Below, piece after piece: positions 54,138 through 62,141 of a stretch of 64,000 bases of DNA. The DNA is taken from positions 62,001 through 126,000 of the forward strand of contig NZ_AP017657.1 in the NCBI RefSeq assembly GCF_002355855.1, read 5' to 3'. The translations under genes were made by a program, and so were the position numbers. The DNA comes from Sphingobium cloacae. GTDB taxonomy: Bacteria; Pseudomonadota; Alphaproteobacteria; Sphingomonadales; Sphingomonadaceae. Below the pieces are notes generated by a model. It did not search any database and was not told where the DNA came from. It saw only the letters and a program-made list of their open reading frames with translations. Position 1 is the first letter of the stretch. Every line of letters begins with the position of its first letter.

Positions 54138-56939
54138 ATGCTTGAGGTCTTCACGGTTGGTGGCGGCGAGTATCTCGTAAACATCTTCAACGCAGTCGCG
54201 GCGTGGTCGGGAGGCGGTGGCTATCGCTCGCTCATCCGCGTCGTCATGGTCATGGGCCTCATCTATTCGCTGCTCGTGGTGGCCTTCACGCTCAACTATA
54301 AGGCGTGGCTGAACTGGTTCCTGCAAGCGACGGCCATTTATCTTTGCCTGATGGTCCCGACGGTGGACATCAAGGTAACGGATCGCATCAACCCGGGCCT
54401 GACGCCATCGACGGTCGACAATGTACCGATGGGATTGGGGGTGCTTGCGAGCTTCACGACACAGGTGGGCGATTGGCTGACGCGGACGGCCGAGACCGTC
54501 TTCGTCATGCCGAGCGAGCTCAACTACTCGACGAACGGCATGGTGTATGGCGCGCGACTGTTCGATGCGACGCGCAACTTCATCATTCGCGATGCGGAGT
54601 TCTCGACCAACCTCGAAAACCATTTCAAGAACTGCCTGTTCGGCGATGTGATGCTTTATCAGAAGTCGCTGACCAATCTTGCGAAGGCGCCCGATCTCTG
54701 GGCTGCGGTCGGGCCGGGCTCGGAAGCCCGATCGCAGCAATGGCTTGAGCGACAAGGTGACGGAACGGTTAACAGCTTCATCATCACTTGCCGGCAGGCG
54801 TACCAGGCGCTCGACGCGCAATGGGGTCCAATGATCGAGGCCAACGCGCCTCTTTGGGGCAAGGAGGTCTATCCCAAGCTCAGCAACGCTCTGGCGGCGG
54901 ACAAGCTCAAACACGACGTTCCCATCGTCAGTGCGGCCTTCACGGGCACGAGCAACAACTTTGCTGAGGTGATGCGCCAGAACACAGCAATCAATGCTTT
55001 CATGCAGGCCCGAAATTCGATGTCCGGCGGGACGGGCGCCGCAGAGATCGACACCTTCGCGCAGACCCGTGCCGACATTCAGGCGCGCAACACCTATAAT
55101 TCGATCGCTCAGCAGGCGATGGCATGGGTTCCGATTTTGAACATCGTGCTGACGGTGGTCTTCTTCGCCATGTTCCCGGTCGTTTTCCCGCTCTTCCTGA
55201 TGCCTCAGACGGGCGTCTCGACGCTGAAGGGCTATGTGACAGGGTTCTTCTATCTCGCCGCATGGGGGCCGCTTTACGTCATCCTTCACATGATCTGCAT
55301 GACGCGGGCGACGTCGGCAGCGACAGGCGTCGCGGAAGGCGGCGTTACGCTCGCAAGCTATGCGGGGATCGGGGCGGTGAATGGCGAGACCGCCACGATC
55401 GCTGGCTTCATGCTTATGAGCGTGCCCTTTCTCGCGGCAGGCCTCGCGCGCGGCGCGATGTCGATTGCCGGGCATTCCATGTCCATGCTCGCGCCGGCGC
55501 AGAACGCTGCGGAAGCGGCGGCGCTGGAACAGACGACCGGCAACTATTCGTATGGCAACGTGAGCTGGGCGAATGCCACGTCGAACATGCGGCAGGCCGA
55601 TCAATGGTCGACGGCGCCCACCTATATGGGCGGCGGCGCCAGCTTCGGGTGGCGTCAGGACAATGGCGCCATGGTGACGGGGTTCGGCAACGGCCAGGAG
55701 GTATATGATACATCCGCGGCCATCTCGCGCCTTGGGTTCACGCCGACGATGACATCGGGATCGGTCGCTGAATGGCGCGAAATGGCCAGCGAGGCGCATC
55801 GCCAGGCGCGTGCCTATGAGAATGCCGCCAACGAGATTCTGACCGCGACCCATGCGAACCGCAGCACGTTCGGAAGCTCAACCGAGCATACGCGGGGTTG
55901 GGAATCGAGCAGCGGCAATCAGGCGAATGCCTCTGTAGAGCAGTTCGATCGGCGCACGGGCAGCAGTACCCAGGGCCTGGAAGAGCGATCGACGATTTCG
56001 CAAAGCGAGCGCGTTTCGGGGCGGCACGATCGCCAAGCGCAGATATCCGATCAGATCGGTGGAGCACTTTCGGCCGGCCTTGGCGGCCGCCGCGGTGGCG
56101 GCAACGGAGGCTCGGGTGGGCGCGGGCTGCCGGGGCTCGGAATCAATGTGTCCAAGTCGGGTAGCCAGATGGACACCATGAATTGGACGACGGACGATTC
56201 TCGGAGCAGTGAGAGCGGCAACACCTCGTCAAGCGGGGTTCGTGACGAGCATGCGAACGGTAGCGGCGCTTCGACGTCGGAAGGCACCTATGCTCGGAGC
56301 GGTGTCTTCGCCCGTGGCTCAAGGACGGATTCGTCGTCGGTCAGCACCGAAGATTCCCTGGCTCTGGCGAAATCCTATTCGGAAACCGCGCGACGGCTCG
56401 ATGAGCTGTCGCAGCAGCTCTCGCGCGACGCGAGCTATGCGGAGACGCATGGAATGCAATTGAGCGAGAACCTGAGTCAGGATCTCGCCCAATGGTATCG
56501 CCACCAGCAGGTCGCAAATCCGGGGCTCGACGCGCCGGAGCTCTGGGCGACCGACTTGACCGATCAGCAGCGAGCGGTTCGGCAGGAGATGATCACGCGC
56601 TGGATGGACGAAAAGCAGGCGTCGATCCGGTCCGAGATCGAGGGCAGGCTCCATGCGCCCGATCTCGTCGATGTGCACCATCCCTCCGTCGATAGCGCTG
56701 CCGACGTTCGGGCGGCCTACCAGCCTCGCGGGCTAGCCGGAGTGCCGGCCGGTCCCGGAGGCGGCCAGTCATCGACGGCAGCGGACATAATCGAAGAGGG
56801 CAGGGCGGATATCGACCTGACGCGTGAGGCTGCCCAATCCATGCGCGGTCAACGCATCCAAGGCGCGGTCGATGTTCAAAGCGAGGTAAACCGGGGCAGG
56901 GACCATGGCTTCTTCCATGATCCCAAGCTGCGAGAATGA
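54138..56939 (+). CDS. traG: Mating-pair stabilisation/entry-exclusion target protein TraG
   Basis: 933 residues. The N-terminal membrane part (to about 460) contains LEVFTVGGGEYLVNIFNAVA and several helices (VPILNIVLTVVFFAMFPVVFPL, GYVTGFFYLAAWGPLYVILH); a long Ser/Gly/Asn-rich periplasmic region follows (about 560-740), then a helical C-terminal segment (about 745-840). In F the TraG C-terminus is recognised by TraS in entry exclusion. Residues about 765-825 are clearly similar to the small secreted protein at 57288. Confidence 0.93.
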   Translation: MLEVFTVGGGEYLVNIFNAVAAWSGGGGYRSLIRVVMVMGLIYSLLVVAFTLNYKAWLNWFLQATAIYLCLMVPTVDIKVTDRINPGLTPSTVDNVPMGLGVLASFTTQVGDWLTRTAETVFVMPSELNYSTNGMVYGARLFDATRNFIIRDAEFSTNLENHFKNCLFGDVMLYQKSLTNLAKAPDLWAAVGPGSEARSQQWLERQGDGTVNSFIITCRQAYQALDAQWGPMIEANAPLWGKEVYPKLSNALAADKLKHDVPIVSAAFTGTSNNFAEVMRQNTAINAFMQARNSMSGGTGAAEIDTFAQTRADIQARNTYNSIAQQAMAWVPILNIVLTVVFFAMFPVVFPLFLMPQTGVSTLKGYVTGFFYLAAWGPLYVILHMICMTRATSAATGVAEGGVTLASYAGIGAVNGETATIAGFMLMSVPFLAAGLARGAMSIAGHSMSMLAPAQNAAEAAALEQTTGNYSYGNVSWANATSNMRQADQWSTAPTYMGGGASFGWRQDNGAMVTGFGNGQEVYDTSAAISRLGFTPTMTSGSVAEWREMASEAHRQARAYENAANEILTATHANRSTFGSSTEHTRGWESSSGNQANASVEQFDRRTGSSTQGLEERSTISQSERVSGRHDRQAQISDQIGGALSAGLGGRRGGGNGGSGGRGLPGLGINVSKSGSQMDTMNWTTDDSRSSESGNTSSSGVRDEHANGSGASTSEGTYARSGVFARGSRTDSSSVSTEDSLALAKSYSETARRLDELSQQLSRDASYAETHGMQLSENLSQDLAQWYRHQQVANPGLDAPELWATDLTDQQRAVRQEMITRWMDEKQASIRSEIEGRLHAPDLVDVHHPSVDSAADVRAAYQPRGLAGVPAGPGGGQSSTAADIIEEGRADIDLTREAAQSMRGQRIQGAVDVQSEVNRGRDHGFFHDPKLRE

Positions 56940-56945
56940 GGAGCT

Positions 56946-57152
56946 TTAGACGAACAGGACGAAATAGCCGACGCAGCCAGCCATGAGCAGATAGGCCAAT
57001 GCATAGCCGATGCGACCGCCGAGCGTAGGATTGCCATCGTGATCGACAGCCGTCCCTATTTCGCAATATTCCTCGTCAACATGCGTGCAGACCGGCGTGC
57101 CCGAAGCCTTGGTCCTATTATAGGTTTCGATGTCGAATTTCACGGTTCGCAT
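56946..57152 (-). CDS. Small single-helix membrane protein opposite traG end
   Basis: 68 residues with GGGAG six bases before the ATG. A cytosolic-looking head (VKFDIETYNRTKASGTPVC) with two Cys (CTHVDEEYC), then a membrane helix (IGYALAYLLMAGCVGYFVLFV). Minus strand, between traG and the TraG-like secreted gene. Size and location resemble entry-exclusion or surface-exclusion genes, but no family was recognised. Confidence 0.6.
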   Translation of the reverse strand: MRTVKFDIETYNRTKASGTPVCTHVDEEYCEIGTAVDHDGNPTLGGRIGYALAYLLMAGCVGYFVLFV

Positions 57153-57287
57153 GGTGAACTCCCAGGAAGTTCACTAGCATGTTCAATCTTTGTTCACAAG
57201 GGGCGGCACTGTCCGAACGGCCATACGGCGCGCCGCTTTGCCCGATTAGGAATGGTCAAACGCAAGGTTGCGCGGAGGGGGTTCGAG

Positions 57288-57716
57288 ATGAAATGGATGG
57301 CAGTTGTCATTGCCGGTAGCGCCCTCCTGGCCCAAGGTGGCCTTGCGACGGCAAAGGAGAGTGCGCTGCCACCACGGGAGTGCGCCGCCAAGGCACAGGC
57401 GGCGGCGATGAAACTCCGGGATATGGCCTCTGCGATCGAAGCGGAGGCTGCTTATGCCGAGCGGCACGGCGGGGCGTTTTCGCCCGAGCTCACCCAGGAA
57501 TTCGTTCAATGGTATCGCGCGCAGAGCGCGAAAGCCGGAAGCGAATTGCCGGATCTGGGAAAGACGGATCTCACAGTTGATGAGGCTCGGGCGCGGCAAG
57601 CGGCGGTTGACCGCTTTCAGCGGGAGAGAAGCGACCGCCAAAATGCCATGGTTGCCGCGATCCATCGCGAGGCTGCGAGGGGATGTCCGGTGCTTGATCG
57701 CCCCGCGTCAAGATAG
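57288..57716 (+). CDS. Secreted TraG-C-terminus-like protein (candidate exclusion or TraG modulator)
   Basis: 142 residues from an ATG with GGAGG seven bases upstream. Signal peptide MKWMAVVIAGSALLAQGGLA, then a helical domain with one Cys near each end (Cys32, Cys133) that could form a disulfide. Residues 55-77 align without gaps to TraG 766-788 (12 of 23 identical, including YAE..HG and QWYR), and the similarity continues to the shared TDLT (93-96). No membrane domain of TraG is included. The gene lies 350 bases after traG with its own ribosome site. Function is inferred from the homology only. Confidence 0.75.
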   Translation: MKWMAVVIAGSALLAQGGLATAKESALPPRECAAKAQAAAMKLRDMASAIEAEAAYAERHGGAFSPELTQEFVQWYRAQSAKAGSELPDLGKTDLTVDEARARQAAVDRFQRERSDRQNAMVAAIHREAARGCPVLDRPASR

Positions 57717-58307: not shown

Positions 58308-59933
<1,626 letters not shown>

Positions 59934-59983
59934 TTAACTCCTTTCCTTGTTCCTTCCTGAATGCTTGAGGAATGGCGGTCCTG

Positions 59984-60298
59984 CTAGGCCGCCTGCTTGA
60001 GCGGGACGACATTGTCGATCACGCCGAGGATGTCGCTTTCCTTCATGATGAGCAGGTCCTCGCCGTCGATCTTGACCTCGGTCCCCGACCATTTGCCGAA
60101 AAGGACCCGGTCGCCGGCTTTCACGGCGAGTTCGATGAGATTGCCGTTGTCATCGCGCGCGCCGGGACCGACGGCGACGACTTCGCCTTCCTGCGGCTTT
60201 TCCTTGGCGGTGTCGGGGATGATGATGCCGCCCGAGGTTTTTTCCTCGGCTTCAATGCGGCGGACGACCACACGGTCGTGCAAGGGGCGGAAATGCAT
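59984..60298 (-). CDS. groS: Co-chaperonin GroES (10 kDa)
   Basis: 104 residues from [14 protein letters not shown]; an overlapping out-of-frame ATG four bases before it (ATGCATGC) is not used. Contains the mobile loop [18 protein letters not shown] and VVAVGPG. GGAGG lies ten bases upstream. First gene of groES-groEL; CIRCE is 114 bases upstream. Confidence 0.97.
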
Positions 60299-60411
60299 GC
60301 ATAACCTCCGGATGCAAAACAATATGTGATGGCCCTCTCGTTCATCTGAACGACAGGCTTTCCGAAGCTAGGAAAGGAGATTTTTCCGTTCAAGGGGTGC
60401 AACGAAAAATA

Positions 60412-61576: not shown

Positions 61577-62095
61577 TCATGACGCCGCACCGCCATTGAT
61601 CGGAATTCGGCGCACACTCTCGTCGGGCTTATCGGAGCGTGGCACTGTCACAGTCAGGACGCCGTTCTTGAACGTTGCGCTCGCCCTGTCGTGTTCGACA
61701 CCGTTCGGAAGGCTGATCCGACGTTCGAAGCGGCCATAGCTTCGTTCAGAATAGCCGCGGTCCTTGTCCTCGACCTCGGCCTTCTTCTCGCCGCGAAGAG
61801 TGAGCGCGCCGTCCTCGACCAGCACCTCCACATTCTTCTCATCCAGGCCGGGAAGTTCGGCCGTTACACGGATTTCCTTGTCCGTCTCGCCGAGCTCTAG
61901 GTGAGGCCAGCCGGCGCGCCGATCAAACCCGGCAAAGGCGGGCATGTTGAAGCCACGCAAGACGTCGTCGAAGAGACGGTTCACCTCGCGGTGAAGCGAT
62001 TGCAGCGGATGAGTGTCCCGGTCCTGTTCGGCGCTGACCGAGACAGGCAGCCGGTTTTCCTGCCGGCTCCAGGGAATGAGATCACGAAAAGCCAT
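61577..62095 (-). CDS. Small heat-shock protein Hsp20 (copy 2)
   Basis: 172 residues from the ATG nine bases after AAGGAG; an earlier ATG directly at the site is too close. Alpha-crystallin domain at about 58-160: LELGETDKEIRVTAELPGLDEKNVEVLVEDGALTLRGEKK and ATFKNGVLTVTVPR (the A-x-x-x-n-GVL signature). Class related to heat-shock proteins of the HspC4/Hsp20 type. Downstream partner of the hsp20 at 62200 on the same transcript. Confidence 0.95.
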   Translation of the reverse strand: MAFRDLIPWSRQENRLPVSVSAEQDRDTHPLQSLHREVNRLFDDVLRGFNMPAFAGFDRRAGWPHLELGETDKEIRVTAELPGLDEKNVEVLVEDGALTLRGEKKAEVEDKDRGYSERSYGRFERRISLPNGVEHDRASATFKNGVLTVTVPRSDKPDESVRRIPINGGAAS

Positions 62096-62141
62096 GATAA
62101 GCATCTCCTTTCTGGCTGGATCCTGTCGATACCTGCCGGCA

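Follow-up and report, generated by a model that had tools for sequence, protein, structure and literature searches.

An apparently exported small protein encoded beside traG on sphingomonad plasmids shares a conserved C-terminal module with TraG

Downstream of the F-type traG gene in the analysed stretch of Sphingobium cloacae DNA (64,000 nucleotides, hereafter the window), a gene was found whose 142-residue product is homologous to a helical module in the C-terminal part of TraG. This product, which we call the mimic, belongs to a small family of previously unnamed, apparently exported proteins. As judged by sequence comparison, the family is under purifying selection, and it was linked to traG at every locus for which DNA was available.

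A stand-alone copy of a TraG module

The features of the locus are summarized in Table 1. The open reading frame had been read in an earlier note on this DNA, and its coordinates, length, frame and ATG start stand as they were given there, as does the ribosome site of its own. The gene starts 349 nt past the traG stop codon; a 68-codon gene on the opposite strand lies in between, so that the mimic begins at a 135-bp divergent intergenic region. The N-terminus (MKWMAVVIAGSALLAQGGLATA/KE on direct reading) resembles a signal peptide. The 12-residue hydropathy maximum was 2.37 near the N-terminus and 0.67 elsewhere, and no segment past the N-terminus was hydrophobic enough for a membrane helix in the hydropathy scan. 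These observations are consistent with the secreted protein lacking a membrane domain that the earlier note had described, export being a prediction from the sequence.

Table 1. Features of the traG 3' region in the window
Feature	Position	Strand	Basis
traG, F-type, 933 aa	54138..56939	+	Pfam TraG_N at residues 3-459
TraG residues 744-833, helical module copied by the mimic (core 744-803 conserved)	56367..56636	+	BLASTP, profile comparison, alignment, predicted structure
68-aa C-tail-anchored membrane protein gene, antisense, abutting the traG stop	56946..57152	-	ORF reading
Divergent intergenic region between 68-aa gene and mimic, 135 bp	57153..57287		ORF coordinates
LexA/SOS-box-like GTTCAATCTTTGTTC between 68-aa gene and mimic	57181..57195		motif scan
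Shine-Dalgarno-like GGAGGGG, purine-rich, 7 nt 5' of the mimic ATG	57274..57280	+	direct reading
Mimic, apparently exported stand-alone copy of the TraG C-terminal module, 142 aa, ATG start	57288..57716	+	ORF reading
Signal-peptide-like N-terminus, residues 1-22, hydrophobic core, ATA/KE cleavage-like site	57288..57353	+	direct reading, hydropathy; cleavage site inferred
Cys32 codon, first of conserved Cys pair	57381..57383	+	family comparison
Cys133 codon, second of conserved Cys pair	57684..57686	+	family comparison

Compared with the S. chungbukense copy, codon positions 1, 2 and 3 differed in 37, 41 and 84 of 137 codons, respectively. The differences thus fall mostly on third positions, and the plus-strand frame looks coding. 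For plasmid pMI2, the one gene given at this site in the (incomplete) RefSeq gene table of PLSDB is an ORF on the other strand (K663_RS24080, window 57246-57665, minus strand) and the mimic is unlisted, so more mimic copies may be overlooked. Behind the mimic, groEL, groES and an Hsp20-type gene are situated (58308-60322 and 61577-62104, minus strand); at the corresponding place in pMI2, the annotation shows two Hsp20 genes.

BLASTP aligned the mimic with TraG of the window at 28 identical positions out of 77 (36%; TraG 750-826, E=6e-13), and none of 2000 shuffles of the mature mimic sequence reached the observed score. The match spans mimic residues 39-114, i.e. most of the predicted folded part (29-130). 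It is thus longer than the gap-free stretch from YAE to QWYR pointed out in the earlier note, in which 12 of 22 residues are identical (12 of 23 with one more residue, counted by eye). A profile comparison, proposed in that note as a check, also gave a match: hhalign of the 28 stand-alone proteins against 31 TraG modules returned a probability of 99.3% and E=1.5e-20 over 83 columns. These 31 were drawn from 37 sphingomonad TraG rows, class-2 TraGs and F being excluded, and with all 37 rows the values were 99.4% and E=2e-21. Chance similarity was rejected on the basis of the shuffles and the profile-profile score. When the mimic was compared with 18,950 NCBIfam models, the sole match at E<=0.1 was the F-type TraG equivalog NF010295 (E=0.011, model positions 749-816); its score of 14 bits lies far under the 600-bit cut-off of the model, which TraG of the window also falls short of (367.9 bits, residues 3-833 aligned to model 1-820). 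TraG of F matched the sphingomonad TraG module profile weakly (residues 729-803, 13.0 bits; best shuffle 10.3) and gave no significant match with the mimic profile in the profile search. No match to the TraG_N membrane domain was detected in the mimic by a Pfam scan, and the 24 family members scanned against Pfam yielded no matches at E<=0.01. A PDB search with the mimic returned no informative match. The host encodes a second F-type TraG on another contig (G000:C2:197803-198126), with which the mimic match was 35%, compared to 31% with TraG of the window.

The copied segment was mapped on a full-length alignment of sphingomonad TraGs with TraG of F. Residues 744-803 form a conserved island within the last 300 residues of TraG, with mean pairwise column identity of 0.68-0.69, as opposed to 0.36-0.47 at 624-713, 0.55 at 714-743, 0.46 at 804-833 and 0.43 at 834-863. 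The island aligned to F residues of about 729-778, and the whole stretch 744-833 to about 729-805. The C-terminus of F-type TraG is reported to be periplasmic and to be required for mating-pair stabilisation and exclusion (PMC9797247, PMC7555446). TraS specificity of F-like TraG was assigned to segment 610-673 (PMC9797247), which by interpolation corresponds to about 636-683 in TraG of the window, among its most variable stretches. As the mimic copies about 744-833, the copied part is a conserved module beyond the specificity segment, and the suggestion of the earlier note that it is the part recognised in exclusion was not borne out. An exclusion role for the mimic is possible. Since the copied core is conserved among TraGs, a likelier target than the exclusion-specificity site would be TraG itself or a partner that most TraGs share.

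Structure prediction, another check named in the earlier note, also agreed with a copied module. AlphaFold2 predicted helices at mimic residues 29-59, 66-80 and 97-130 (24 sequences; mean pLDDT 85, pTM 0.71; pLDDT 94-98 across residues 31-120), and helices at 14-47, 54-70 and 86-116 for the TraG module (mean pLDDT 77, pTM 0.60). The three helices occur in the same order with similar spacing in both predictions, an agreement that is not independent because both alignments share mimic rows. In the predicted model, Cys32 falls close to the beginning of helix 1 and Cys133 immediately beyond helix 3; provided that helices 1 and 3 run antiparallel, a disulfide between the two cysteines would hold the open ends together.

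A single-sequence protein search with the mimic gave 23 matches at E<=0.01, and a search with a ten-member alignment gave at least 42 at E<=0.1, with the best 8000 candidates scored. Among the 42, many were variants of the window protein, either near-identical to it or chimeric. Detailed comparison was carried out on 28 sequences of this family, five of them taken from loci, some of these coinciding with a database entry or closely resembling one; the window variants P0002-P0006, P0009, P0011-P0014 and P0018-P0022 were left out, as were P0016, P0038, P0039, P0041 and P0045. P0016 is called 'transcriptional regulator YdaS' in one source, a name for which we found no support here. The 28 sequences comprise window-like proteins with YAE.HGG, a second group with YAETHNN, and more divergent sequences found in S. 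panacis and in genome G615. A pair of cysteines 100 or 101 residues apart was present in 27 of them, the sole exception being P0044, a 92-residue sequence lacking the N-terminus. As for TraG, 38 of the 39 sequences, some of which are fragments, were free of cysteine over their last 420 residues; the remaining one, a contig-end fragment, contained two, both outside the module. The N-terminus was hydrophobic (12-residue maximum >2.0) in 25 of the 28 family sequences. In the second group the N-termini are short and contain no basic residue, and export is therefore less sure there. We propose to define the family by a signal-like N-terminus, a single module, a flanking Cys pair and linkage to traG, all of which were found for the mimic. 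No description of an exported TraG-module protein was found in the literature, as judged by titles and the starts of abstracts.

The dN/dS ratio was 0.19-0.30 in the four closest mimic pairs; for a more distant pair it was 0.25 or 0.62 depending on the method. The rare and patchy occurrence of the mimic would be expected of a non-functional relic of traG duplication. However, both these low ratios in the closest pairs and the retention, across identities of about 25-70%, of the N-terminus, the Cys pair and invariant residues argue against such a relic, which we regard as highly improbable. Pseudogene or remnant status was rejected given the purifying selection across independent loci.

Linkage to traG, distribution and descent

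In all eight distinct loci with DNA, the mimic was located on the 3' side of traG, 0.3-12 kb away. Identical copies of the window locus were entered once in this count, and the remaining database proteins are without context. The distances from the traG stop to the mimic were 349, 339, 2429, 3246, 683, 3219 and 11630 nt, and about 3.5 kb in G615; the linkage which the earlier note had asked to be looked for in related sphingomonad plasmids was thus present throughout. The mimic was encoded on the strand opposite to traG in five of the seven loci tabulated. A 4012-bp block reaching from traG to 58149 was 100% identical in three plasmid records (Sphingobium sp. MI1205 pMI2, Sphingobium sp. YC-XJ3 and Sphingomonas sp. 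MEA3-1), and identical mimic proteins were encoded in contigs of Novosphingobium naphthalenivorans, Rhizorhabdus histidinilytica, Sphingobium lactosutens and Sphingopyxis flava. A window-type mimic with its traG was also observed at G434:C1:372882-373301 on a chromosome-sized contig (4.25 Mb), which indicates that the transfer region can sit in the chromosome. A match on a plasmid of Sphingomonas sp. NBWT7 (L088:11923-13743), where no feature is listed, proved to be a broken traG in the vicinity of transposase genes and was therefore rejected as a stand-alone mimic.

Among the candidates scored per genome, at least 44 of 94 genomes of one genus contained a module match and at least five a mimic; in a second genus (195 genomes) these were at least 41 and at least four, and in 397 genomes of the family at least 17 contained a module match and at least two a stand-alone copy. 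Most related traG loci are therefore without the mimic, so it is accessory, and transfer does not depend on it as an obligatory component. Among the candidates scored per genome in the genomes searched, none was a stand-alone copy located apart from traG.

In three loci (L003, L060 and L181), umuDC-type genes follow immediately after the mimic in the same orientation, between the mimic and traG, and the LexA box in these HN-type loci precedes umuD, not the mimic. Upstream of the second-subfamily mimic in L003, L060, L180 and L181, we observed an inverted repeat (about ACCATATGCGCC...GGCGCATATGGT; imperfect in L060 and L180) together with a AATTTGCGCC-like element; either might possibly be an operator for some regulator. 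The position of the mimic directly 5' of umuDC in these three loci, together with the chaperone genes close by in pMI2 and the window, could point to a periplasmic role apart from conjugation, for example in stress or SOS; the TraG module would then have been put to new use as a generic helical hairpin. We consider this improbable, as all eight loci with DNA are traG-linked and the candidates scored per genome included no stand-alone copy off traG.

Ultrafast bootstrap was used to evaluate a tree built from 28 mimics together with 38 TraG modules. The mimics formed one clade in the best tree, with a support of 64 when the most divergent member was included, and of 92 when only the two main groups were considered. 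The modules of three TraGs from another class (L076-L078) joined the mimics at 93, and descent from that TraG class is thus possible. Distances among mimics tracked those among the linked TraG modules (Mantel r 0.76, p 0.00035, 8 pairs, four of which are close relatives), a result that co-inheritance on one backbone can give alone. Mean identity between a mimic and its linked TraG was 27.1%, versus 24.7% over all pairs (permutation p 0.019). The linked TraG was never the best match of a mimic, ranking 3 to 21 of 38, so this ranking does not establish cognate specificity. Repeated independent birth from the TraG of each plasmid was rejected, given the single clade (support 64) in which the own TraG is not the closest. 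Taken together, the comparisons fit an old duplicate kept with its transfer region, from which direct contact with TraG does not follow.

That the mimic co-diverges with the TraG module and lies close to traG would also be expected if it were a positive accessory subunit, binding TraG or TraN in the donor and thereby aiding assembly of the machine or mating-pair stabilisation. That TraG paralogues can replace one another in the mating pore, as reported for TraGS of SGI1 (PMC5389848), lends itself to such a helper as well. On the other hand, the mimic is missing from most related traG loci and is not in line with the tra operon (opposite strand in 5/7 loci), and we hold this role to be rather unlikely.

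The 68-residue gene and a LexA-type box

A short antisense membrane gene like that abutting traG in the window was scored by script at 72 of 75 distinct traG 3' ends (73 of 76 with L088, which was left out of these counts because of its truncated traG and a spurious ORF). The exact motif GTTC-N7-GTTC, reported as the Caulobacter LexA box (PMC12700426), occurred at -33 to -48 from the start of the 68-aa-type gene in 13 of the 72, or in 12 of 65 after clustering at 90%, against about 0.35 expected by chance over the 10,950 bp scanned. GAAC-N7-GAAC was the commonest repeat of the 4-mer-N7-4-mer type upstream of these genes. In the window, GTTC-N7-GTTC occurs once, while 1.75 occurrences are expected by chance, so that weight is to be put on place and conservation and not on the single match. 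The same motif was found about 75 bp 5' of the recA ORF in the genome of the window.

The exact box is common to the window and only one other of the eight mimic loci, and traG loci without a mimic also have it. From this, it can be inferred that the box probably serves the 68-aa gene first; SOS control of this gene is possible, judging by the motif. As an operator of the mimic itself, the box was dropped, since it is positioned 28 bp upstream of the 68-aa gene and also occurs at loci with no mimic. Conjugation is reported to induce SOS in recipients (PMC2958807). SOS or LexA control of entry exclusion was not found in the literature, going by titles and the starts of abstracts.

In well-studied systems, the exclusion gene is said to commonly adjoin its donor-side target (PMC8923210). 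By analogy, the 68-aa gene is a good candidate for entry exclusion (Eex). The mimic adjoins this gene in the traS/eex position, and it might therefore bind the exclusion protein of its own plasmid (perhaps the 68-aa protein) or block incoming TraG in the recipient. Nevertheless, what the mimic copies is a part of TraG other than the TraS-specificity segment of F, and the 68-aa-type gene is near-universal (72/75) while the mimic is rare, which indicates that the former can do without the latter. We therefore give little credence to the mimic as an exclusion partner.

Proposed role and comparison with known systems

The role we favour, albeit tentatively and from sequence comparisons, is that of an accessory periplasmic competitor of the TraG module, which may dampen or gate mating in plasmid-bearing cells. 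The mimic would be exported to the periplasm, where its two cysteines would form a disulfide stapling the ends of the excised helical hairpin and so allow it to fold alone. It could then occupy the partner of the TraG module, be it TraN, another envelope component or TraG itself; according to PMC7555446, a TraG-TraN interaction had not been detected to date. With the partner occupied, mating-pair stabilisation or redundant mating would be dampened or gated in the plasmid-bearing cell. On this plasmid, the mimic may be co-produced with the 68-aa membrane protein from the intergenic region containing the SOS box.

A more far-reaching model, which we put forward as doubtful speculation, assumes that F-type plasmids of sphingomonads carry a damage-responsive two-gene unit at the traG end, consisting of a tail-anchored exclusion protein and, on some plasmids, a disulfide-stapled periplasmic decoy derived from the TraG module. 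According to the model, the LexA box would raise exclusion under SOS, for example upon entry of single-stranded DNA. The decoy would compete with TraG and in this way jam the mating machine. If true, such a unit would represent molecular mimicry of a secretion-system subunit serving self-immunity.

In what way the periplasmic half of TraG contributes to mating-pair stabilisation and to exclusion has long been an open question, and the C-terminal domain (TraG*) of F is described as dynamic, hard to crystallise and non-functional alone (PMC9797247). A conserved small excised module, probably stapled by a disulfide, marks one folding unit that evolution appears to have used alone. The mimic would thus be a tractable protein for structure determination and pull-down, and its deletion could test what the module binds. 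If its export is confirmed, this would argue that the copied part of TraG is periplasmic on these plasmids.

The closest known counterpart is the C-terminal domain of F-type TraG itself (TraG*; NF010295, N-terminal Pfam PF07916), reported to be periplasmic in F (PMC9797247), with which the mimic shares a homologous module and the same predicted helix order. In contrast to TraG, the mimic contains neither the membrane half nor the specificity segment, has a signal-like N-terminus of its own and an extra Cys pair, and is about 142 residues long as against 933. As for the entry exclusion proteins TraS and Eex (F-like, SXT/IncC), they resemble the mimic in being encoded near the traG 3' end and in being accessory to transfer. 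However, TraS is described as having three or four predicted membrane helices (PMC7555446), whereas the mimic, in which hydropathy revealed only the N-terminal hydrophobic stretch and no transmembrane helices of the TraS/Eex type, is soluble by prediction and TraG-homologous; the 68-aa gene fits the TraS/Eex slot better. The surface exclusion factors TraT and Sfx are likewise small plasmid-encoded envelope proteins, and act against redundant mating. They are reported to be outer-membrane proteins, Sfx being a predicted lipoprotein with its specificity in TraN (PMC11493245), while a lipobox cysteine of this type is absent at the cleavage-like site of the mimic, whose first conserved cysteine is residue 32 in predicted helix 1. 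Finally, TraGS of SGI1 is, as we propose for the mimic, a second TraG-type protein modulating a resident F-type machine; TraGS is a full-length substitute supplied by a mobilizable island (PMC5389848), whereas the mimic is an excised module.
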